From Ignavibacteria bacterium (lineage in GTDB: Bacteria; Bacteroidota; Ignavibacteria; Tepidaquicellales; OLB5), in the NCBI GenBank assembly GCA_019912545.1, contig JAIOIK010000142.1, positions 1 through 35,734 on the forward strand: 35,734 bases of DNA, given 5' to 3'. This document shows, one piece after another, positions 6,143 through 24,151 of the stretch (position 1 is its first letter; each line of letters opens with the position of its first letter). Below the pieces are notes generated by a model, which searched no databases, was not told the origin of the DNA, and saw only the letters and a program-made list of their open reading frames with translations. The translations under genes were made by a program, and so were the position numbers.

Positions 6143-6678
6143 TGGGTGAACTGCTGAATCTTTTCCTCGCATTCCTTAAAGTAGGTTCATTTTCTTTTGG
6201 CGGAGCGTATTCTCTATTGCCGGTTATAGAAAGTGAGGTAGTTACCAAACATGCATGGCTGAATCATGATGAATTTTTGAAAGTATTAACCCTAGTGGAA
6301 GTTATCCCGGGAGCAATTTCAATAAAATTTGCTACATATACGGGATATAAAGTAGCTGGAATTCCAGGCGCTATTGCCGCAAACCTTGGGAACCTTGCCA
6401 CCCCAGTAATTCTTATTTCATTTGCTTCGTATCTGTATTCATATATAGAAAATCATGAATATATAAAACAAACATTATCCGGGATAAAATATGCAGTGCT
6501 TGGAATGATAATGGCGGTTGTTTATCAATATTTTCTGAAAAATTTCAGTGATTGGTTAGGAATTGTTTTCTTTGCTTCGGGTTTTATTCTAACTATATTC
6601 TTTCGACTGAATCCGGTTTATATAGTTACAATTATCGGTCTGGCATCGTTTGTTATTTACAAGATTAAATCAGTATGA
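6139..6678 (+). CDS. Half-size chromate transporter (CHR) family membrane protein
   Basis: Inner-membrane protein of 179 residues with about five or six hydrophobic segments. The start of the CHR domain is plain: F-L-K-V-G-S-F-S-F-G-G-A-Y-S-L-L-P, followed by the family's second motif E-V-I-P-G-A-I-S-I-K-F-A-T-Y-T-G-Y. Full ChrA proteins are fused doubles of about 400 residues. Short ones usually come as adjacent pairs of opposite topology, but here only one half is present. The start overlaps the previous stop (ATGA at 6139-6142; a second ATG follows at once), and its own stop overlaps moaA (ATGA). Chromate is the known substrate of the family and resembles sulfate and molybdate. Placement in a Moco operon suggests molybdate or tungstate traffic, which is inference. 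Confidence 0.85.
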   Translation: MMGELLNLFLAFLKVGSFSFGGAYSLLPVIESEVVTKHAWLNHDEFLKVLTLVEVIPGAISIKFATYTGYKVAGIPGAIAANLGNLATPVILISFASYLYSYIENHEYIKQTLSGIKYAVLGMIMAVVYQYFLKNFSDWLGIVFFASGFILTIFFRLNPVYIVTIIGLASFVIYKIKSV

Positions 6679-7679
6679 AAAAGCTTGTTGACAAATTTGG
6701 AAGGGTTCTCGATTATCTCAGATTTTCAGTTACAGATAGATGTAATTTGAACTGTGTTTACTGCAATCCCAGGGATAATAAACTAAACCTTCTTAAAGAT
6801 CATGAAATGCTAAGTAACGCTGAATCGCTTAGACTAATCGGTATCTTTGTGAAACATTTTGAATTCAGAAAGATACGTTTTACAGGTGGGGAACCGCTTG
6901 CAGGAAAAAATATTGTGAACTTAATTGCTGAGTTGAAACCGCTGCATGAATCTTACGGACTGGATATCGGGATTACAACAAATGGCACATTGCTGAAAGC
7001 GCATCTTGACAGCCTGAAACAAAGCGGGGTAACTAAATTAAATATATCGCTTGATAGCCTTGATAAAGATAAATTCTGTAAAATAACCGGCAAAGATAAG
7101 TTTGAAAGTGTTATGGATGCAGTTTTATTGGCTGAAGAAATTGGATTTCAACCTCTAAAGATTAACTGCGTTGTGATGAAAGGTATTAATGATGATGAAA
7201 TATTGGAATTTGTGGACTTCGTAAAAAACAGAAATATAAATATAAGGTTTATTGAGTATATGCCATTTAGCGGCAATAAATGGTGCGAAGGCAAATTTAT
7301 CAGCTATATGGAAATTAAAGATATTATTGAAAAAAAATTCCGCCTGATTGCCTTTGGCGAAAACAATTCGGAGGTTGCTAATAATTATCACATTGCCGGC
7401 TATAAAGGTATTGTCAGTTTTATCAGCTCTATTTCAAACCATTTTTGTGATGGCTGTAACAGATTAAGAATAACATCTGAGGGAAGTCTGAAATTATGTT
7501 TGTTTTCTCCGAAATACCAGGATCTGGATATGAAAAATTATCTTAGAACAGACAGTTTCAGTGATACGGAAATTGCTGAAATTATCGAACACAAAGTACA
7601 GGATAAAGTCTTAATGCATCCTGATATATCCGAACTGCTGAAACTTGAAAAAAATAATATGCTTTCAATTGGAGGTTAA
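6675..7679 (+). CDS. moaA: GTP 3',8-cyclase MoaA
   Basis: Radical SAM enzyme that starts molybdopterin synthesis by turning GTP into 3',8-cyclo-GTP, the substrate of MoaC. It has 334 residues, the usual length. The SAM cluster ligands are C23-x3-C27-x2-C30 after F-S-V-T-D-R; G-G-E-P is at 71-74. The second 4Fe-4S cluster that binds GTP uses C258, C261 and C275 in the context C-D-G-C-N-R-L-R-I. The protein ends in Gly-Gly (333-334), the tail MoaA needs for activity. It overlaps the transporter gene by four bases. The codons of the final Gly-Gly, GGA GGT, also form the Shine-Dalgarno sequence for moaC. Confidence 0.97.
   Translation: MKKLVDKFGRVLDYLRFSVTDRCNLNCVYCNPRDNKLNLLKDHEMLSNAESLRLIGIFVKHFEFRKIRFTGGEPLAGKNIVNLIAELKPLHESYGLDIGITTNGTLLKAHLDSLKQSGVTKLNISLDSLDKDKFCKITGKDKFESVMDAVLLAEEIGFQPLKINCVVMKGINDDEILEFVDFVKNRNINIRFIEYMPFSGNKWCEGKFISYMEIKDIIEKKFRLIAFGENNSEVANNYHIAGYKGIVSFISSISNHFCDGCNRLRITSEGSLKLCLFSPKYQDLDMKNYLRTDSFSDTEIAEIIEHKVQDKVLMHPDISELLKLEKNNMLSIGG
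7671..7675 (+). promoter_or_regulatory. Ribosome binding site that decides the moaC start
   Basis: GGAGG, the clearest Shine-Dalgarno sequence in this operon. It is made by the last two glycine codons of moaA and sits five bases before ATT at 7681. Since most genes here have weak sites, this one argues for initiation at the AUU. Confidence 0.65.
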
Positions 7680-7680
7680 G

Positions 7681-8163
7681 ATTAAAAACTTTTCTCATAC
7701 AACCGCTGACGGGATGGTAAATATGGTAAGCATATTAAAAAAGCAACCGTCTTTAAGAACCGCTTCTGCTTACGGTGAAGTATACCTGAACAGAGAAACT
7801 TTTCTTTTGCTCAGAAAAAACGCGCTTAAAAAAGGTGATGTATTAACAATTGCTAAAATTGCGGGTATACAGGCAGCCAAAAAGACTTCCGCGCTGATAC
7901 CTCTTTGTCATAATATATTAATATCAAAAATTGATATTTCGATCAAACTAAACATAAAGAAATCCCTGGTAGAAATAACATCATATGCAGAAACAAATGC
8001 TGCAACAGGCATAGAGATGGAAGCTTTAACAGCAGTTTCAGTGGCTGCACTCACAGTTTATGATATGTGTAAAGCAATCAGCAAGAATATCACAATTTCA
8101 AATATTAGCCTGCTTTCTAAAACAGGCGGAAAAAGCGGTAATTATAATAAAATAAATAAATAA
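7681..8163 (+). CDS. moaC: Cyclic pyranopterin monophosphate synthase MoaC, probable AUU start
   Basis: Converts 3',8-cyclo-GTP to cyclic pyranopterin monophosphate. The active-site residues are all present: K51 (K-G-D-V), H77 (P-L-C-H), E112 and E114 (E-M-E-A-L), D128 and K131 (Y-D-M-C-K). The start is chosen at an ATT codon (7681). It lies five bases after a full GGAGG (7671-7675), gives 160 residues against 161 in E. coli, and puts every catalytic residue at the same number as in the E. coli enzyme. The first ATG (7714) would remove the conserved F-S-H-T-T-A-D-G segment. In-frame TTG codons at 7645 and 7669 are other options, but have no ribosome site before them. Family is certain; the exact start is not. 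Confidence 0.93.
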   Translation: MKNFSHTTADGMVNMVSILKKQPSLRTASAYGEVYLNRETFLLLRKNALKKGDVLTIAKIAGIQAAKKTSALIPLCHNILISKIDISIKLNIKKSLVEITSYAETNAATGIEMEALTAVSVAALTVYDMCKAISKNITISNISLLSKTGGKSGNYNKINK

Positions 8164-8166
8164 ATT

Positions 8167-8718
8167 ATGGAACAGAGAATATCTCATCAGAATACAAATG
8201 AACTTATTTATAACAATCAGCCTTTAAGCGAGGATAAAGATCTAAATACAAGTAAGGGACGTATATTAGCTATTTCGGTCAGTAAAAGAAAAGGAACGCC
8301 AAAATCCAATGTAGATTCAGTCAGACTGATCGAAGATTACGGCATCGAAAATGATGCGCATGCAGGTAAATGGCACAGACAAGTAAGTTTTCTGGCCATT
8401 GAAAGTATTCAAAGAATGAGGGATAAAGGATTGCCAAAGTTAAGACCGGGGGCATTTGCGGAAAACCTTACAACTGAATTTATAGACTTGCCTCAATTAA
8501 AAATTGGTTCTGTTGTCAAAATCGGCAGTGAAGCGGAACTGGAAATTACCCAAATTGGGAAAGAATGTCATGCAAAATGCGCTATCTATTATAAAGTCGG
8601 AGATTGTGTTATGCCTTCTGATGGAATATTCGGAATAGTAATAAAAGGCGGCATTATAAGCAAAGATGATGAAGTAATTGTAATAGAACCTCCTGTGGCT
8701 GAAACTTCTGATAATTAA
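8167..8718 (+). CDS. MOSC domain protein
   Basis: 183-residue cytoplasmic protein. Residues 33-172 form a MOSC domain, the beta-strand fold related to the C-terminal part of Moco sulfurase and to YiiM/YuaD proteins. Landmarks are V-S-K-R-K-G-T-P-K, the G-I-E-N-D-A-H-A-G segment, R-P-G-A-F-A-E-N-L, and a cysteine cluster G-K-E-C-H-A-K-C with a further Cys in V-G-D-C-V-M-P. The first 30 or so residues are an unconserved polar extension. MOSC proteins bind or handle Moco sulfur or carry N-hydroxylated reductase activity. Stand-alone ones in moa operons are often found beside or fused to MoaB/MogA, which is not present here. It starts three bases after the moaC stop. The precise reaction is unknown. 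Confidence 0.9.
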   Translation: MEQRISHQNTNELIYNNQPLSEDKDLNTSKGRILAISVSKRKGTPKSNVDSVRLIEDYGIENDAHAGKWHRQVSFLAIESIQRMRDKGLPKLRPGAFAENLTTEFIDLPQLKIGSVVKIGSEAELEITQIGKECHAKCAIYYKVGDCVMPSDGIFGIVIKGGIISKDDEVIVIEPPVAETSDN

Positions 8719-8734
8719 ATACTTATAAGAAGAA

Positions 8735-9946
8735 ATGAAAAGCTACATTGAGGCATGCCGTATAATTAAAGATGAGATACAATTGCTTGAAACGGGCACT
8801 GAAGAAGTAACCTTACTTAACTCTCTTAACAGGGTAATTTCTGAAGATATATTTTCAGATATTAATCTGCCTTCGTTTGATAATTCTGCAATGGATGGAA
8901 TTGTAATAAATTTCAAAGAGGGAATTTCCAAGTGGAAGATTGACAGCGAAATTTCTGCCGGAAAATTTGCTCAAACTTATATCGGCGAAGATAATGCAGC
9001 TTTAATAATGACCGGGGCTAAAATTCCTGAAGGAGGCAATACTGTTATTCCTGTGGAAGATATTTCTGTTGAAAACGATACAGCTATTTTAAAATCCGGC
9101 GCAAAATATAAATTCGGACAGAATATTCGGAAAGCAGGACAGGACCTGAAGAAAAATGAACTTATTGCCGGAAAGTTTATCACTTTGAAGCCAAGACATA
9201 TTTCCCTTCTGGCATCATGCGGAATTCCGAAAGTCCGGGTATTAAAAAAATATAATTTTGGAATAATTACTACAGGAGATGAACTAGTTGATATTGGAAG
9301 CAAATGCAGCGGCGATAAAATATATGCAAGTAATTTATATACTTTAATCGCATTGATTGAAGAGCTTAACATGGATCATACAAACTTTGGCATTTGCAAT
9401 GATAACAAAAATGACCTTAGAGATGTGATACATACTTCATTGCACAGCAACATTGATTTTCTTATTACTTCCGGAGGCGTATCGGTTGGTAAGTTCGATT
9501 TTGTGATGGAAGTTCTCAAAGAACTGGGAGCTGAAATTATTTTCTGGAAAGTAAACATCAAACCCGGGAAACCATTATTGTTTGCGAAAATTAATATTAA
9601 GGGGAAAAAGAAATTGATCTTTGGACTGCCCGGGAACCCTGTTTCTTCCTTTGTAAATTTTCATCTTTTTATTAAAAATATATTGACGGAATCATATTTC
9701 CATTCTTCCCGCAGAACCATAACCGCAGAATTAGTGAATGACCTGAAAAAAAATGATCTGAAACGCCATTTTATAAGAGGTATTGTAGATCAAAACGGTA
9801 ATTCGGGAAAATATTTTGTTAAAGAAATAGAAAACCAATCTTCTTCAAATATGATGGGATTAAGCGTATCAAACGCCCTAATCACAATTGAAGAAGATAG
9901 AATAAACCTCAAAACCGGAGATGAAGTAGAATGTATAATGATATAA
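8735..9946 (+). CDS. moeA: Molybdopterin molybdenumtransferase MoeA
   Basis: Inserts molybdate into adenylylated molybdopterin. 403 residues, close to the 411 of E. coli. The ordered landmarks are F-D-N-S-A-M-D-G (51-55, with the conserved Asp at 54), I-M-T-G-A-x-I-P-E-G, I-T-T-G-D-E-L-V, T-S-G-G-V-S-V-G-K-F-D-F and G-L-P-G-N-P-V-S-S. It starts 16 bases after the MOSC gene with only a weak purine-rich site, and its end overlaps mobA by 16 bases, so the two are probably translated together. Confidence 0.96.
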   Translation: MKSYIEACRIIKDEIQLLETGTEEVTLLNSLNRVISEDIFSDINLPSFDNSAMDGIVINFKEGISKWKIDSEISAGKFAQTYIGEDNAALIMTGAKIPEGGNTVIPVEDISVENDTAILKSGAKYKFGQNIRKAGQDLKKNELIAGKFITLKPRHISLLASCGIPKVRVLKKYNFGIITTGDELVDIGSKCSGDKIYASNLYTLIALIEELNMDHTNFGICNDNKNDLRDVIHTSLHSNIDFLITSGGVSVGKFDFVMEVLKELGAEIIFWKVNIKPGKPLLFAKINIKGKKKLIFGLPGNPVSSFVNFHLFIKNILTESYFHSSRRTITAELVNDLKKNDLKRHFIRGIVDQNGNSGKYFVKEIENQSSSNMMGLSVSNALITIEEDRINLKTGDEVECIMI

Positions 9947-10545
9947 CCGGAATAATTCTTGCGGGGGGGAAAAGTTCGAGGATGGGCGCAAATAAAGCTC
10001 TTTTACCTCTAAATGGAAAAACAATTATTGAGCATATTGCTTCTTTAGCTAAATCGATATTTGCAAATGTAATCCTGATCACCAATCATCCTGAAGAATA
10101 TTCGTTTTTGGGACTGGATATGTTTAAAGATATTTATCAGGGCAAAGGACCTCTGGCTGGTATTCATTCAGGATTAAATAATTCAAAAACCGAAAAAAAT
10201 TTTATTCTTTCCTGTGATATTCCACTTATCAATAAAGAGATAATAGAATTTTTACTGAAATATAATACTACTCATCCTGTTACAGTTATTAAAGCAGATG
10301 GTTTTGTGCAGCACTTGTGCGGCGTATACGGCAGATCATTGAAAATGTACGCAGAAGAAATTCTTCTGCAAATGGATAATGGTATACAAACAGGAAAAAA
10401 AGGAAAGTGTAAAATGACTGAACTGCTTAATAGTAAAGGTGCAGAAATTATTGATTGCAGGGATATCCCATATTATTATGAAGGGATGTTTTTGAATATC
10501 AACAGACCATTTGATTATCAGACACTTTTAGAACAAAATAAATAA
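9931..10545 (+). CDS. mobA: Molybdenum cofactor guanylyltransferase MobA
   Basis: Transfers GMP from GTP to Mo-molybdopterin to make the guanine dinucleotide form, which becomes the bis-MGD cofactor of NarG. 204 residues with the nucleotidyltransferase opening I-I-L-A-G-G-K-S-S-R-M-G-x-N-K-A-L-L, the metal-binding S-C-D-I-P-L-I motif, and G-P-L-A-G-I before it. Only one ATG fits (9931), so the gene overlaps moeA by 16 bases. It is the last gene of the operon; no clear terminator follows. Its presence explains why this operon is next to a DMSO-reductase family enzyme. Confidence 0.94.
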   Translation: MYNDITGIILAGGKSSRMGANKALLPLNGKTIIEHIASLAKSIFANVILITNHPEEYSFLGLDMFKDIYQGKGPLAGIHSGLNNSKTEKNFILSCDIPLINKEIIEFLLKYNTTHPVTVIKADGFVQHLCGVYGRSLKMYAEEILLQMDNGIQTGKKGKCKMTELLNSKGAEIIDCRDIPYYYEGMFLNINRPFDYQTLLEQNK

Positions 10546-11043: not shown

Positions 11044-12315
11044 ATGAACATTTTTGACCAATTAGTAATTCCTGCTTCTTCAAATCATATACTCTTGATT
11101 AAATATATGCTTACTATTTCGCTTATACTTTTCATACCATATATAGGTATGCTGCTGGGAGGAATGTTCATTTCTACTTATTTCAATAAAAAAGGAAAAC
11201 GCGAAGGAAATAGTCTTTATACAAGATTTGCAGAAGACGTAATAAATAAACTAACAATATCCGGAAATGCAAAATTTGGACTTGGTGTAATTCCGGCCAT
11301 TTCAATTTTCTTAGCTTATGCTCAACTGCTCTACACAGCAAAAACAATTTCCCTGAGCATGATAGCCCTGGCAATGGTGCTGTTCTTTTTGTCACTATCT
11401 TTTATTTATAAATACAAAGATATATTCAAACTTGAAAGGATGTTAAGCCAGATTAATTATACCGGTTCAATTGGAAAGTATCTGTTATTAACTGCTGTAT
11501 ATATATTTGCCGGCGCAATGGCTCTTGCTTCAAGTCCGGATAACTGGAACAGCGTTAATAATATTATGCAGTTAATATTTTCATGGCAAAGTATGTTTAA
11601 TTTCCTTACTCTATTGTGTATTTCAGGCCTTGTTTCAGGCAGCGCTATCATTTTCTTCTTCTTTAAATGGGATGGCGGTTTGAAAGATATGACGGATGAT
11701 TATTCGGAATTAGTGAGGAGATTTGCTGGTAATCTGGCGATAATTTCGGGAATTCTGTTCCCATTAATGATTCTGCTAAGTTATGTATATTTACCGTATT
11801 CTGCTTTATCTCCGCTATTATTTTACTACACTGTTGCAGTAATGCTGGTTTCGATAATACTTGGTAGTTTTATTTCTTCAATATTAAAGTCATCCGGTGT
11901 AGGATCAGCCACTATGTTTTTTGCTATGATTATTATCATGATTTCTTTAAATATTTTTAAAGACCAACAGGCATTTGCTACGGCTATTGATTTGAATACA
12001 GTAATCATAACAGAGCTGGCTGACAAGCTGGAAAAAGAATCTCAGAGCAAAGTTACACAATCATCCGGTATTGACGCAGAAGCTATTTTTACCCAGAAGT
12101 GTTCTGCATGTCACAAGTTCGACCAGAAAGTCGTCGGTCCTCCATACGACCTGACAGTGCCAAAATATAAAGGTGATGTACAGAAACTTGCTGAATATAT
12201 TCTGAATCCACAGAAAATCGATCCTGCGTACCCTCCCATGCCTGTACAGGGACTCAAGAAGAAAGAAGCAACAGCAATGGCTCAATGGCTTATTGATAAA
12301 GCGGGGAAAAAATAA
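11044..12315 (+). CDS. Polytopic membrane protein fused to a C-terminal cytochrome c domain
   Basis: 423 residues in two parts. Residues 1-310 have about eight membrane segments (near 19-44, 75-97, 100-120, 145-164, 175-205, 228-250, 253-280 and 285-306). There are very few histidines, essentially one at the start of the first helix, so a bis-His heme b in the membrane is not evident. Residues 335-423 form a class I cytochrome c domain with C353-S-A-C356-H357 and a methionine ligand in P-P-M-P. This domain follows the last helix and would sit in the periplasm. The membrane part is not assigned to a named enzyme. It lies between the Moco and nitrate reductase operons and could be an electron carrier to a periplasmic or quinone partner. 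It has no obvious ribosome site. Confidence 0.82.
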   Translation: MNIFDQLVIPASSNHILLIKYMLTISLILFIPYIGMLLGGMFISTYFNKKGKREGNSLYTRFAEDVINKLTISGNAKFGLGVIPAISIFLAYAQLLYTAKTISLSMIALAMVLFFLSLSFIYKYKDIFKLERMLSQINYTGSIGKYLLLTAVYIFAGAMALASSPDNWNSVNNIMQLIFSWQSMFNFLTLLCISGLVSGSAIIFFFFKWDGGLKDMTDDYSELVRRFAGNLAIISGILFPLMILLSYVYLPYSALSPLLFYYTVAVMLVSIILGSFISSILKSSGVGSATMFFAMIIIMISLNIFKDQQAFATAIDLNTVIITELADKLEKESQSKVTQSSGIDAEAIFTQKCSACHKFDQKVVGPPYDLTVPKYKGDVQKLAEYILNPQKIDPAYPPMPVQGLKKKEATAMAQWLIDKAGKK

Positions 12316-14026: not shown

Positions 14027-15121
14027 TTATAAAACATTTCTATTACCTAATATGGTTTTTAAAACACTCCGAAATACTCCGGCAAATGCTGCTAACCATG
14101 CAATTATAGCAAAATAAATAAAAGTATAAGGAATAAAGTAAAGAAATGAAAGATTCATTGCCTCAGCTATCTGGAAAGTACAAACTGTGTACATTCCTAA
14201 TGGGAAAACAGCGCCCCAATATAATGGGTCGTAAATCATCGGGAAACGCTTATATATATGCCTCCATACAGCCAGAATAATAAGCATGGGTATCCACCAG
14301 GAACCAGTTGCCCAGTAAAATATTGTAAATCCTTTAATAAACGGCAGCAAAGACTGAAGAAAAGGGGCATCAGGTGTATTTTTAATTAACAATGCACCGG
14401 AAAGTGTTGAAATTGCCATAGCTCCCATGTTGATCCAATACGGAGGTGAAAGATCACCCGGCGAAAACTTAAAAAATGTATACCTGTAGAATATCAGTGA
14501 TATCATCCAGATATATAGCATACCGCCCCATAACCACATAGAAAGAGCAAGAAAGTTTACCTCAAGCTTGTAAGGCTGCTCTAAATGTGTTGCAATATAT
14601 GTGCTTAATACAGATATAGACTGGGTTGCCACAACCGATAACAGCCAGCCACCGGTTATACCCTCGGCTAAAGAAGGTTTGTTTTCTTTTATCGTAAGAA
14701 TAGTAAAAACAATATACATAAGGCAAATCCATAACACTATGCCTATTAGCCACAGGATTGTTGCAATGAAATAGTTCTCATATATCAGAATAAACTGGCT
14801 TCCAAGAACACAGGTTGCAGCAACTGATGTAAAAAATCCCGTGCTTCGTGTATGGTTTACGATATCATCTATTACTTCTTTCCTGTACCTGATGATACGA
14901 ACTATAAAAAGAAACCAAATTATAATATAGGTAAGAATATTCAGCCAAAACAAAACTAGAGCTGCAATTTTTATATCCAGTAAATGGGCTGCAATTGAAA
15001 CAATACCTGTAGCCATAACCATTGCAAAATAAGAGGGAGATAATGCTTTAATGTCTGCATTAATTCTTGCAATAAAAAAAGATTTTTCTTCAGCTTTTAT
15101 GCTATTTGCATTACTGTTCAT
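14027..15121 (-). CDS. TDT/SLAC1-type anion or dicarboxylate transporter (TehA family)
   Basis: 364-residue membrane protein with about ten helices. The opening L-S-P-S-Y-F-A-M-V-M-A-T-G-I-V-S is the hallmark of the tellurite-resistance/dicarboxylate transporter family (TehA, Mae1, SLAC1). Another typical stretch is Y-W-G-A-V-F-P-L-G-M-Y near residue 300. Known members are anion channels or malate carriers; plant SLAC1-like channels pass chloride and nitrate. The gene starts five bases after narK, so it is most likely in the same transcript. That placement suggests nitrate or nitrite movement, as an alternative or complement to NarK. Substrate is inferred from position only. Confidence 0.87.
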   Translation of the reverse strand: MNSNANSIKAEEKSFFIARINADIKALSPSYFAMVMATGIVSIAAHLLDIKIAALVLFWLNILTYIIIWFLFIVRIIRYRKEVIDDIVNHTRSTGFFTSVAATCVLGSQFILIYENYFIATILWLIGIVLWICLMYIVFTILTIKENKPSLAEGITGGWLLSVVATQSISVLSTYIATHLEQPYKLEVNFLALSMWLWGGMLYIWMISLIFYRYTFFKFSPGDLSPPYWINMGAMAISTLSGALLIKNTPDAPFLQSLLPFIKGFTIFYWATGSWWIPMLIILAVWRHIYKRFPMIYDPLYWGAVFPLGMYTVCTFQIAEAMNLSFLYFIPYTFIYFAIIAWLAAFAGVFRSVLKTILGNRNVL

Positions 15122-15126
15122 ACATA

Positions 15127-16629
15127 TTAATGATGTTCAATCTTTCTGATCAAATCAGGGACTTCCTGTTTCATCATTTTTGAAATGACATTATGCATCC
15201 AGGTAAGACAAACTGCAGAAAGAGCAACCAATAAAATCCACATGGTTGTCCATAAGCCGGTGAGCTCCAGCAGAAAACCAAATACAATAGGCAGGAAGAA
15301 TCCTCCTAATGCACCAAGTACACCAACCATACCGCCAACTACTCCAACTTCCTTAGGAAAATATGTTGGGATGTGCTTGTAAACAGCAGCGGACCCAATT
15401 CCCCAAAGAATAGCAATAACAAAAATAATTCCTGTAAACACCCACATATTTGCCTGAAAATAAACACGTGTAACCCCTTTTGCAATAATCTGTCTTTTAT
15501 CAACCTTATCACCGGCTTTTACTACCGGTTGAGTCCATGTTTGCTTTGTAGGAAAAATAAATGTTTTATTATCTAAATCCTTTGTTTCCTGCTGATCTGC
15601 TTCAACATGTGTTTGATTACCTGCAATTTTCAGGTTATATTTTTGCTCATCTATAATTATTAATGTATCAGAAACAAAAGAAACTGTGCCGGATTTAACC
15701 GCAGATATTCCGCTGCCCGGTGTGTAAACTTCCATTCTCGGAAAAATAAGCAAAAATGAACAGACACATGATAGTCCAAAAACCCAGTATAATACTTTAC
15801 GCGCCCCAAATTTATCTGATATTAATCCCCCTGCTGCTCTGATAATTGCAGCCGGAAAACTAAACAATGTTGCAAGCAAACCTGCTGTTATTAATGAGGT
15901 TGAATATACATTTAAATAATACCCGATTAACCATTGTGATAGCGCAACAAAACTTCCGAAAACCAGAAAATAATACAGCCCAAAACGCCATACCCTGATC
16001 TGTTTTAAAGGAGAAAGTAACTGAATAAGAGATCTAGGTTCCTGTGCTGCCCTTTTATTATTGGCAAATACCAGGAAAATTATACCCATAATAATAAGTC
16101 CAATGGCATAATATTCAGGTAATCTTCTCCAGTTATCAAGGTTACTGCCGCCTTCGGTAAAGTTCTTTAGTAAAGTTGGCGCTATAAATGTAGTTAAAGC
16201 TGCTCCAAGTGTACCGCCGCCAAAAATACCAAGAACTGTTCCCTGTTTATTCTGCGGAAACCAAACTGATGTATAGGCAACTCCGGCAGCAAAACTGGAA
16301 CCTGAAATACCATATCCAAGACCTAAAAGAAGAAATGATGTGTAATTATCAGCAAAGGATAAAAAGTAGATCGGAACTGCGCTCAATAAAAGAATTGCCC
16401 CTAATATATACTTCCCTCCATATCTATCTGAAAGGGTGCCCATAGGCAGCCTTAAAAGAGCCCCGGTAAGTATAGGGGCACCTAATAAAAGTCCGGTTTG
16501 TGAACTATCCCATTTGTAAACTCCGTTATCTACAAGGAAAGTAATCAAAACGCCGTTAATTGTCCAGGCTGCAAAACATACCATAAAGGCAAAAGTACTC
16601 AGTAAAAGATTCTTATATGATTTCCCCAC
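15127..16629 (-). CDS. narK: NarK nitrate/nitrite MFS transporter with periplasmic insertion
   Basis: 500-residue twelve-helix transporter that brings nitrate in or exchanges it for nitrite. The GTG at 16629 is chosen as start. The frame stays open upstream to 16755, but that stretch lies inside narI in another frame and has no family similarity. Both nitrate signatures are visible: the glycine-rich one after V-W-F-P-Q-N-K-Q-G (about 133-141, G-I-F-G-G-G-T-L-G) and the second after Y-F-P-K-E (about 432-443, G-G-M-V-G-V-L-G-A-L-G-G). Between helices 9 and 10, residues 300-393 are a polar, strand-rich insertion of about 94 residues. By topology it lies in the periplasm, and it contains V-K-A-G-D-K-V-D-K-R-Q-I-I-A-K-G (about 367-382), similar to barrel-sandwich (lipoyl/HlyD-like) folds. 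Standard NarK has only a short loop there. It is ten bases from narI, in the same operon. Confidence 0.93.
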   Translation of the reverse strand: MGKSYKNLLLSTFAFMVCFAAWTINGVLITFLVDNGVYKWDSSQTGLLLGAPILTGALLRLPMGTLSDRYGGKYILGAILLLSAVPIYFLSFADNYTSFLLLGLGYGISGSSFAAGVAYTSVWFPQNKQGTVLGIFGGGTLGAALTTFIAPTLLKNFTEGGSNLDNWRRLPEYYAIGLIIMGIIFLVFANNKRAAQEPRSLIQLLSPLKQIRVWRFGLYYFLVFGSFVALSQWLIGYYLNVYSTSLITAGLLATLFSFPAAIIRAAGGLISDKFGARKVLYWVFGLSCVCSFLLIFPRMEVYTPGSGISAVKSGTVSFVSDTLIIIDEQKYNLKIAGNQTHVEADQQETKDLDNKTFIFPTKQTWTQPVVKAGDKVDKRQIIAKGVTRVYFQANMWVFTGIIFVIAILWGIGSAAVYKHIPTYFPKEVGVVGGMVGVLGALGGFFLPIVFGFLLELTGLWTTMWILLVALSAVCLTWMHNVISKMMKQEVPDLIRKIEHH

Positions 16630-16639
16630 AATAAAAGAA

Positions 16640-17368
16640 TTAATTATTTTTCGGTCTTGTAACTCCCCAGCTTTCTTCAGGATTGCGTACTCTGTTTTTG
16701 GAACGGTACCATACAACTTTCTGGTAGGGTCTCCAGATGTAGCTGAAAGGTGCAACTATAAAATGAACAAGTCTTGAAAATGGAATTAACAGAACTATCA
16801 AAAATGCTCCTATAATATGAAGTTTTATTACCAATGGCAATTGACTTACTGCAGTTATTTCGGGACTGAACGTAAGCAGAGATACTAAATAAGGACTTAA
16901 TACAGAAGCAAACCATGATGAACCCCACCTGTAATCATATGCTATCCATACTCCAAGAACTATCTGAGCAAGCAAAACAACCTCTACAAAAATATCCATC
17001 TTACTTGTTACAATGCTTATTCTGGGATTCGTAAGCCTTCTTATAAATAAACCAATTAAACCAACTAATGCGGATAAACCTAAAATAAATGCCCCGACTT
17101 CAATTATAATCAACCTTATCGGAACGCTGTTAAACGCCAATGTTTCTTTTGGAAAAATAAAGATGAAAAGATGTCCCAGGAATATCAATACAATACCAAT
17201 ATGAAAAGGTATCGTGCCCCAAAACAGTTTTCTTTGCTCAAGAAACTCTGATGATAAAGAAGAATATTTAAAAGACAGGAATTTATATCTGTAAATTGAA
17301 CCCACGATACAGATAAATAACGCGAAGTATGGGAATGCCGTAAACAGTAAAACATCTAAATTAACCAT
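16640..17368 (-). CDS. narI: Respiratory nitrate reductase gamma subunit NarI
   Basis: Membrane cytochrome b that oxidises quinol and passes electrons to NarH. 242 residues with five helices. The four heme b ligands are H56 and H66 (F-H-I-G-I-x-L-I-F-L-G-H) and H184 and H202 (K-L-H-I-I-G-A, P-F-S-R-L-V-H). The first pair has the same numbers as in E. coli NarI, and the second pair keeps the same 18-residue spacing. The C-terminal tail W-R-P-Y-Q-K-V-V-W is typical of the family. It lies 21 bases after narJ. Confidence 0.96.
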   Translation of the reverse strand: MVNLDVLLFTAFPYFALFICIVGSIYRYKFLSFKYSSLSSEFLEQRKLFWGTIPFHIGIVLIFLGHLFIFIFPKETLAFNSVPIRLIIIEVGAFILGLSALVGLIGLFIRRLTNPRISIVTSKMDIFVEVVLLAQIVLGVWIAYDYRWGSSWFASVLSPYLVSLLTFSPEITAVSQLPLVIKLHIIGAFLIVLLIPFSRLVHFIVAPFSYIWRPYQKVVWYRSKNRVRNPEESWGVTRPKNN

Positions 17369-23293: not shown

Positions 23294-24151
23294 TTATGAA
23301 TTTTTTCTTATATAATCTTCCTGACGTTTGTAAATTTCAAAGTTTACACTTCGTTTTCTCCGGTTGTGCCATAACCCGCCAAAAACAAAAAGCAGCAAAA
23401 ATAAACCGCCTATACCTGAATAAAGAAAGTTTATCGGTTGATTTGTTTGCTGTACATTCTGATTTGCCGCATCTACACCCTTTAAATATGCAGCAATATC
23501 AAATACTTCTTCGTCCGTTATCGGATTATTAACAAAAGCCATGTTCATTACAGGAAAAGGTTGTGTTTGAATTATATTTGTTAATCCGCCCTCGCTCAGT
23601 TTAGAAAATGAATGTGTAAGGTCAAGTGCAAGATTACCGCCTCCTAATGCAGTTACTTCAGGAATGTTATGACATGAAACACACGGCGCACCGTCATTAA
23701 CAAGTCTAAGTTCTCCTGAAAACAACTTTTTTCCTTTTTCATAATTATCAGGAGTTGCTTCAGATAGCGGCCGTATTTTGGATACTATTGTTTCGGATAC
23801 TACAGAACCTCCTTGAGATTCAATGTAAGTTAATACTTTTTTTATCTCAGGATCACTTAGACCCGGATCAGGCATTACTACTTTATTAAATTCTTCAAAT
23901 ATTTTTTTGGCATTTTCGTCACCGCTGTTGACAACTGTTTGAGAGGATTTAATAAATTTCATAAGCCAGGCTTCTTCCCGTCTTTTTGTGACACCCGATA
24001 GATCAGGTCCGACAAGTTTACCTTTCCCTATAGTATGGCAAGGCGAGCATTTTAACTTGAATATTTCTTCTCCTGATTGAGCTTGCAAACTTGATGATAC
24101 TAATAACACGAATTGGAGCAGAATTGTGAATGAAACAGTAATAAATTTCAT
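23294..24151 (-). CDS. Membrane-anchored diheme cytochrome c, NarC-like
   Basis: 285-residue exported cytochrome. A signal peptide (1-25, ending Q-A-Q) is followed by two cytochrome c domains with C35-S-P-C38-H39 and C157-V-S-C160-H161. Methionine ligands are offered by V-V-M-P and by P-F-P-V-M-N-M. A C-terminal anchor lies at 242-262, then a basic cytoplasmic tail. It is the first gene of the operon, directly before narG. The same order, a diheme cytochrome then narG-H-J-I and transporters, is known from Thermus thermophilus, where NarC is needed for nitrate reductase electron supply and assembly. The same job here is a good inference from position and architecture; I do not claim orthology. 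Confidence 0.87.

Follow-up and report, generated by a model that had tools for sequence, protein, structure and literature searches.

NarK1 and NarK2 constitute the textbook routes by which nitrate enters respiring bacteria. E. coli NarK and NarU, the NarK2-type antiporters with solved structures, share the common 12-helix fold with the protein described here but lack a domain between TM9 and TM10 and occupy a separate branch of the tree. Its sister group is the NarK1/NasA type, represented by the NarK1 half of Paracoccus denitrificans NarK and by Pseudomonas aeruginosa NarK1, with approximately 40–46% identity in the body and the same substrate arginines. The TM9–TM10 region of these proteins has 14–29 residues, whereas that of the NarK encoded in the window (the whole 35,734-nucleotide stretch of Ignavibacteria DNA analyzed here) has 106. 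Passages of a published paper (PMC5217062) present nitrate/proton symport by Paracoccus NarK1 and by NasA as a proposal, and in passages of another one (PMC2700814) one narK gene of Geobacter metallireducens is assigned by homology to a symporter and the other to an antiporter. An extra loop in a NarK-family protein has been noted in Aspergillus nidulans CRNA, which clusters with the NarK1/symporter group; in the passages concerned (PMC5217062) this loop (residues 221–310) is predicted to be cytoplasmic, unlike the periplasmic insert of the window NarK.

The nearest parallel in function is offered by the peptide transporters PepT1 and PepT2 (SLC15). According to passages of PMC4597091, they carry an extra soluble extracellular domain inserted in the TM9–TM10 connection, i.e., at the junction of both triple-helix repeats of the C-terminal bundle; the mammalian domain consists of two immunoglobulin-like folds, binds trypsin, and is dispensable, its removal causing no appreciable loss of transport. 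The NarK insert occupies the same TM9–TM10 site, but the PepT fold, as described in these passages, is probably a different one. Three elements are already known: this family of transporters, the insert's fold, and the notion that an MFS protein may carry an additional domain. In the titles, beginnings of abstracts and passages of the literature searched, no description of an extra domain in NarK was found, and the combination of a NarK1/NasA carrier with a periplasmic barrel-sandwich domain is new as far as these sources go.

The narK gene lies in an operon headed by a cytochrome c gene and followed by narG, narH, narJ (assigned by position), and narI (Table 1). The longest narK frame extends over 15127–16755 on the minus strand and encodes 542 aa counted from the first TTG. 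Since the homologues begin near residue 43 of this long frame, GTG at 16629 was taken as the likely start, and all NarK residues are numbered from it (500 aa). No ATG is present near the homologue-predicted start (16629–16755). A run of plus-strand ORFs near the nar operon (6675–10545) resembles, by the translations, genes of molybdenum-cofactor biosynthesis.

Table 1. Coordinates of the narK gene, parts of the insert in its product, and operon genes in the window.
Feature	Position	Strand	Remarks	Evidence
narK, NarK1/NasA-type MFS transporter	15127..16629	(-)	500 aa from inferred GTG	PF07690; superposition on NarK/NarU; tree
Inserted barrel-sandwich domain, predicted periplasmic, residues 299–392	15454..15735	(-)	between TM9 and TM10	fold model; RpoB-like profile and fold; 111/111 clade members
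First stalk strand, residues 297–307	15709..15741	(-)	runs on from TM9	conservation 0.69; model strand 300–309
Variable loop, residues 335–357	15559..15627	(-)		conservation 0.21; pLDDT < 50 for most
Second stalk strand, residues 383–396	15442..15483	(-)	runs into TM10	conservation 0.69; model strand 381–390
narI	16640..17368	(-)	upstream of narK, overlaps longest narK frame	PF02665 2.4e-59; TIGR00351 above cut-off
NarC-like cytochrome c gene	23294..24151	(-)	operon head	PF00034 2.7e-15

A gene for an SLAC1/TDT-family anion channel (14027–15121) begins 5 bases past narK, at the position taken in most relatives by a second narK gene (NarK2). The narK–SLAC1 pair is also present in locus L084; three Ignavibacteria loci (L039, L066, and L073) encode SLAC1 close by on the opposite strand and lack a NarK2 by best hit. 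Besides narK, the window's own genome gave a single weak TIGR00886 match (46.7 bits). SLAC1 might act in NarK2's stead as the nitrite exporter.

The body of the protein is that of a NarK/NNP-family carrier. It matched PF07690 at 5.2e-33, and the full-length model (mean pLDDT 85.4, pTM 0.80) superposed on the NarK/NarU crystal structures with Z of 40–43 over 356–385 residues, in agreement with the 12-helix MFS fold of the family. TIGR00886 also matched with E 1.2e-54, yet its 185.8 bits fall below the curated cut-off of 311.7, and the match ends ahead of the insert, at long-frame residue 338. R60 and R264, present in 64/64 clade rows, align with E. coli R89 and R305, which we take to be the two substrate arginines. 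T140 (16210–16212) stands in place of E. coli N175, presumably the Asn of the TM5 nitrate signature; among the 64 clade rows this position holds Asn in 58, Thr in 4, and Ser in 2, one of the latter being L084. The window NarK belongs to the nitrate importers of the NarK1/NasA type and, by homology, is probably a nitrate/proton symporter.

The initial annotation had reported a 94-residue insertion (residues 300–393) between helices TM9 and TM10. The approximately 94 extra residues were confirmed and placed at residues 299–392 (15735–15454), and standard NarK indeed has no domain at this site, the TM9–TM10 region of E. coli NarK being 18 residues long versus 106 in the window NarK. The NarK-family PDB structures found by sequence are E. 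coli proteins devoid of the insert. The location outside the inner membrane was likewise borne out by homology: TM9 is preceded by the motif-A-like loop SDKFGARK and, since this loop is cytoplasmic, the helix runs outwards and should deliver the insert into the periplasm.

The structure prediction for the full protein and a fold search with the insert, both proposed in that annotation, showed a small beta domain with one loose loop and matches to RNA polymerase, and they support the suggested barrel-sandwich-like fold. When the insert was folded alone with 79 relatives, the mean pLDDT was 81.0, with the core strands above 90 and the loose loop at domain residues 45–59; the stalk reached only ~67–77 in the model of the full NarK. 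The place of the insert is taken in the sister NarK1 proteins by a few residues, e.g., TDYVIQGKDGPISFST; the domain therefore seems to have entered at the tip of a pre-existing TM9–TM10 loop, which we read as a hairpin.

The scan of genome contigs revealed 525 relatives, and the best 80 of 525 all carry the insert. Together with 30 proteins from whole genomes and the window NarK they formed a clade set of 111 sequences (Neff 55). The segment corresponding to residues 297 to 396 spans 87–114 residues (100 in the window) in all 111 members. Because each of them has the insert between the same two columns, it is a real feature of these proteins and not a chance one. Instead of being peculiar to the window NarK, the insert marks a whole subfamily with members in about a dozen phyla. 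The labels comprise Bacteroidota, Ignavibacteriota, Thermodesulfobacteriota, Pseudomonadota, Omnitrophota, Zixiibacteriota, Acidobacteriota, Chloroflexota, Planctomycetota, Calditrichota, Hydrogenedentota, Fidelibacterota, and Myxococcota; they come from record titles and tree labels, many of metagenome bins, so that single labels may be wrong.

Closer to the window, a full-length insert-bearing NarK was found in 2 of 15 genomes of its family, the other copy being 73% identical. The 395 genomes of the phylum gave full-length matches of ~46–55% identity, plus a few fragments, and the remaining matches were much weaker and insert-less where placed. Among 256 plasmid records with a NarK match, none reaches 60% identity; the best plasmid matches listed, including Paracoccus denitrificans NarK and the plasmid-borne Pseudomonas aeruginosa NarK1, align in two pieces that span no more than 87% of the query, with ~39–47% identity. 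The TM9–TM10 region of 14 retrieved plasmid relatives had 14–29 residues in 12 cases and 11–12 in those from Thermus and Nonomuraea. No relative was found in the viral scan. Match lengths of ~2 kb in the first loci, considered as possible larger inserts or cytochrome domains, proved to reflect two narK genes in succession; the NarK frames contain no CxxCH.

In a tree from which the insert columns had been omitted, a branch with 100/100 support, present in 200/200 bootstrap trees, set the 29 insert-bearing rows apart from all others. They joined 12 rows of the NarK1/NasA type with support 100/99, whereas E. coli NarK was placed elsewhere. An earlier tree lacking these 12 rows also united the insert-bearing proteins in one group. 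Hence, the insert was gained once, on the NarK1/NasA branch, and the trees require one origin only.

The source of the domain was looked for by sequence and structure. The single-sequence PDB search with the insert gave no match. The insert profile retrieved 35 PDB sequences up to E 10, all of them RNA polymerase beta, with the best E of 0.013. Foldseek with the insert model listed 50 matches, all to RNA polymerase and none at E < 0.001, and a second structure aligner superposed 61–66 residues in its 50 listed matches (Z 8.8–9.9, rmsd 1.2–2.4 A). Thus the insert, one domain of ~90 residues, found RNA polymerase beta in all the listed fold matches, a list that, being filled by this protein, is silent on other barrel-sandwich families.

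In 148 whole genomes the insert profile matched 15 NarK frames and, outside NarK, only four places at E up to 0.001, in frames of 1284–1348 aa; these four are alike in sequence, and one of them, examined further, is RpoB (PF00562). The genome of the window itself contains, up to E 10, no second match other than this RpoB. The profile–profile comparison of the insert with RpoB gave 97.4% over 68 columns, the RpoB rows having been chosen via insert-profile matches and thus not being independent, and reversed controls reached at most 0.7%. The matched module corresponds to E. coli residues ~712–787, at the start of PF00562, and not to the flap, which has an insert of its own, attached at 938–942 and near 1038 according to passages of PMC2939025. 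On visual comparison, RpoB has the G-x-V, V-x-V-G-x-x-V, and L-A-x-G positions in common with the insert; P297, M299, P360, W365, F391, A393, and N394 are specific to NarK. The RpoB module is cytoplasmic, forms a part of the polymerase, and is devoid of P360, W365, and the stalk, whereas the insert lies in a membrane transporter and not in an RNA polymerase subunit. Profiles and models point to the barrel-sandwich module of RNA polymerase beta as the probable nearest relative of the insert, by descent or by a shared fold alike.

Other families were weighed against this assignment. None of the Pfam models matched the window insert at its cut-off. The top sub-threshold match was RnfC_N (PF13375; 18.4 bits versus the cut-off of 25.6), which also matches 37 of 80 clade members at E up to 0.1; it was considered as a candidate nearest family, and only one of 21 related genomes has a match above the cut-off.

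The initial annotation compared the stretch VKAGDKVDKRQIIAKG to the turn of lipoyl/HlyD-type folds, from which a carrier arm or an adaptor-like piece could be envisaged. The stretch is present and corresponds to the motif V-x-V-G-[DQ]-x-V-x-K-K-x-L-L-A-K-G, conserved in the family, but the likeness is not specific to lipoyl/HlyD domains, and RpoB matches better. Biotin_lipoyl and Biotin_lipoyl_2 appear as sub-threshold Pfam matches in seven and two of 80 members, respectively. Against this, the profile–profile scores with domains drawn from related genomes (65.7% over only 17 columns for the AccB type and 1.4% for the E2-type lipoyl domain) remain far under that of RpoB. Biotin/lipoyl attachment domains bear their modified lysine on a hairpin such as AMKM or TDKA, and this hairpin is absent from the family consensus. 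We therefore regard a lipoyl/HlyD-type domain as highly improbable.

The distribution of constraint over the 111 members is centered on the stalk: mean conservation of both stalk strands exceeds that of the body before and after the insert (0.63 and 0.62), and the barrel halves score 0.49 and 0.59. In the second stalk strand, 57% of positions are at least 90% conserved. P360 and W365 in the barrel are invariant and could form a binding site.

For the role of the domain, a built-in brace or gate acting on its own carrier is the reading we prefer, giving it an even chance. The rigid head would clamp the outer ends of TM9 and TM10, at the point where both three-helix repeats of the C-terminal bundle meet, and might thereby brace this bundle or tune its periplasmic gate during alternating access; it would act within the transporter rather than mainly dock one fixed partner. 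This reading is favored because the retention throughout the clade, the independence of genomic context, and the stalk-centered constraint fit an action on the own carrier. The removal of the PepT domain with transport nearly intact, and its binding of a partner (passages of PMC4597091), count against it and keep docking alive. The stalk pLDDT of only ~67–77 in the full model, the invariant P360 and W365, and the lower stalk identity of the NasC-type group in one bin (see below) also speak against this reading. The strong conservation of the stalk glycines, prolines, and aromatics next to a free distal loop, and the retention of the domain whatever the operon context, would also suit a head that stabilizes the carrier and helps its insertion or dimerization, with no direct part in transport or docking. 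We consider such an aid to folding or assembly unlikely, as the insert-less NarK1/NasA relatives, at ~40–46% identity, manage without the domain.

Docking, in which the head would recruit a partner in the periplasm or the membrane, such as NarI, the neighboring NarK2, an NarC-like cytochrome, or an enzyme consuming nitrite, is possible but doubtful. It draws on the invariant P360 and W365, which are not common to RpoB, on PepT1/PepT2, where a partner-binding domain sits at the same site and trypsin is bound (passages of PMC4597091), and on the gene neighborhood. By best hit, the 80 loci, many of them short, contain NarK2 in 68, NarI in 58, and NarC in 35 (NarH in 65, NarG in 54, and NarJ in 52); the best-hit assignment was used for NarK2 because the NarK2-seed HMM also matched the insert-bearing NarK (79/80 loci), and the NarK2 counts of that HMM were discarded. 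However, when the 43 loci with full 8 kb flanks are considered, NarI is present in 30 and NarC in 29. Two of the 13 full-flank loci lacking NarI (L019 and L036) run off inside the nar operon, and in the other 11 truncation does not account for the lack; in L011, L003, L005, and L075 there is no NarK2 in the flanks by best hit. The docking explanation allows a partner encoded elsewhere in the genome.

Eight Bacteroidota loci (L003, L004, L005, L007, L010, L011, L012, and L035) adjoin a NasC-like cluster, recognized by NCBIfam in L004 and L011 and by the gene pattern in L003, and deduced in the other five from weak NarG/NarH-like matches without NarI. In L075, NarK is encoded between NirB and a Nas-like protein. 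These eight loci together with L046, L067, and L075 keep 19–20 of 20 signature residues. Nor is the barrel constraint relaxed in the NasC-type group: at equal body identity, barrel identity was 0.48 versus 0.45 and 0.72 versus 0.68 for NasC-type versus nar-operon members, based on no more than 11 and 13 pairs. In one bin, the stalk identity of the NasC-type group was the lower one (0.65 versus 0.72). Since signature and barrel constraint persist without NarI, a dock for NarC/NarI is not what maintains the domain everywhere. Docking to these proteins, of which the NarC-like cytochrome was put forward initially, is hence unsupported as the shared function, with 11/43 loci lacking NarI other than by truncation and the NasC-type members retaining the signature.

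Several of the neighborhoods deserve mention in their own right. In L004 (11477–15957), and similarly in L003 and L011, a NasC-like molybdoenzyme, an Fe-S protein, and a Rieske protein are encoded beside the insert-bearing NarK, together with a 350 aa protein with no NCBIfam match; the cluster looks like a distinct nitrate reductase complex. The Zooshikella NarK (L080, 3046–4926) combines the insert with a C-terminal extension of ~110 residues, and no nar genes were found nearby. L027 encodes, from near 11799, an insert-less NarK-like protein of 578 aa, the long C-terminal part of which resembles a universal-stress-protein domain.

Returning to the brace or gate, a bolder version of it may be put forward tentatively, with less confidence than the general reading: an RpoB-related barrel-sandwich module would have been grafted once onto the TM9–TM10 connection of a nitrate/proton symporter, where it would serve as an obligatory periplasmic clamp controlling gating or proton coupling and define a separate class of nitrate importers in the dozen or so phyla.

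Annotation and homology models that treat the clade members as plain NarK overlook the domain. The conserved extra head marks a large branch of NarK, found in Bacteroidota, Ignavibacteria, Geobacter relatives, and many uncultured lineages. As a bacterial parallel to PepT1/PepT2, it offers a way to probe whether the TM9–TM10 junction merely tolerates cargo or serves control.
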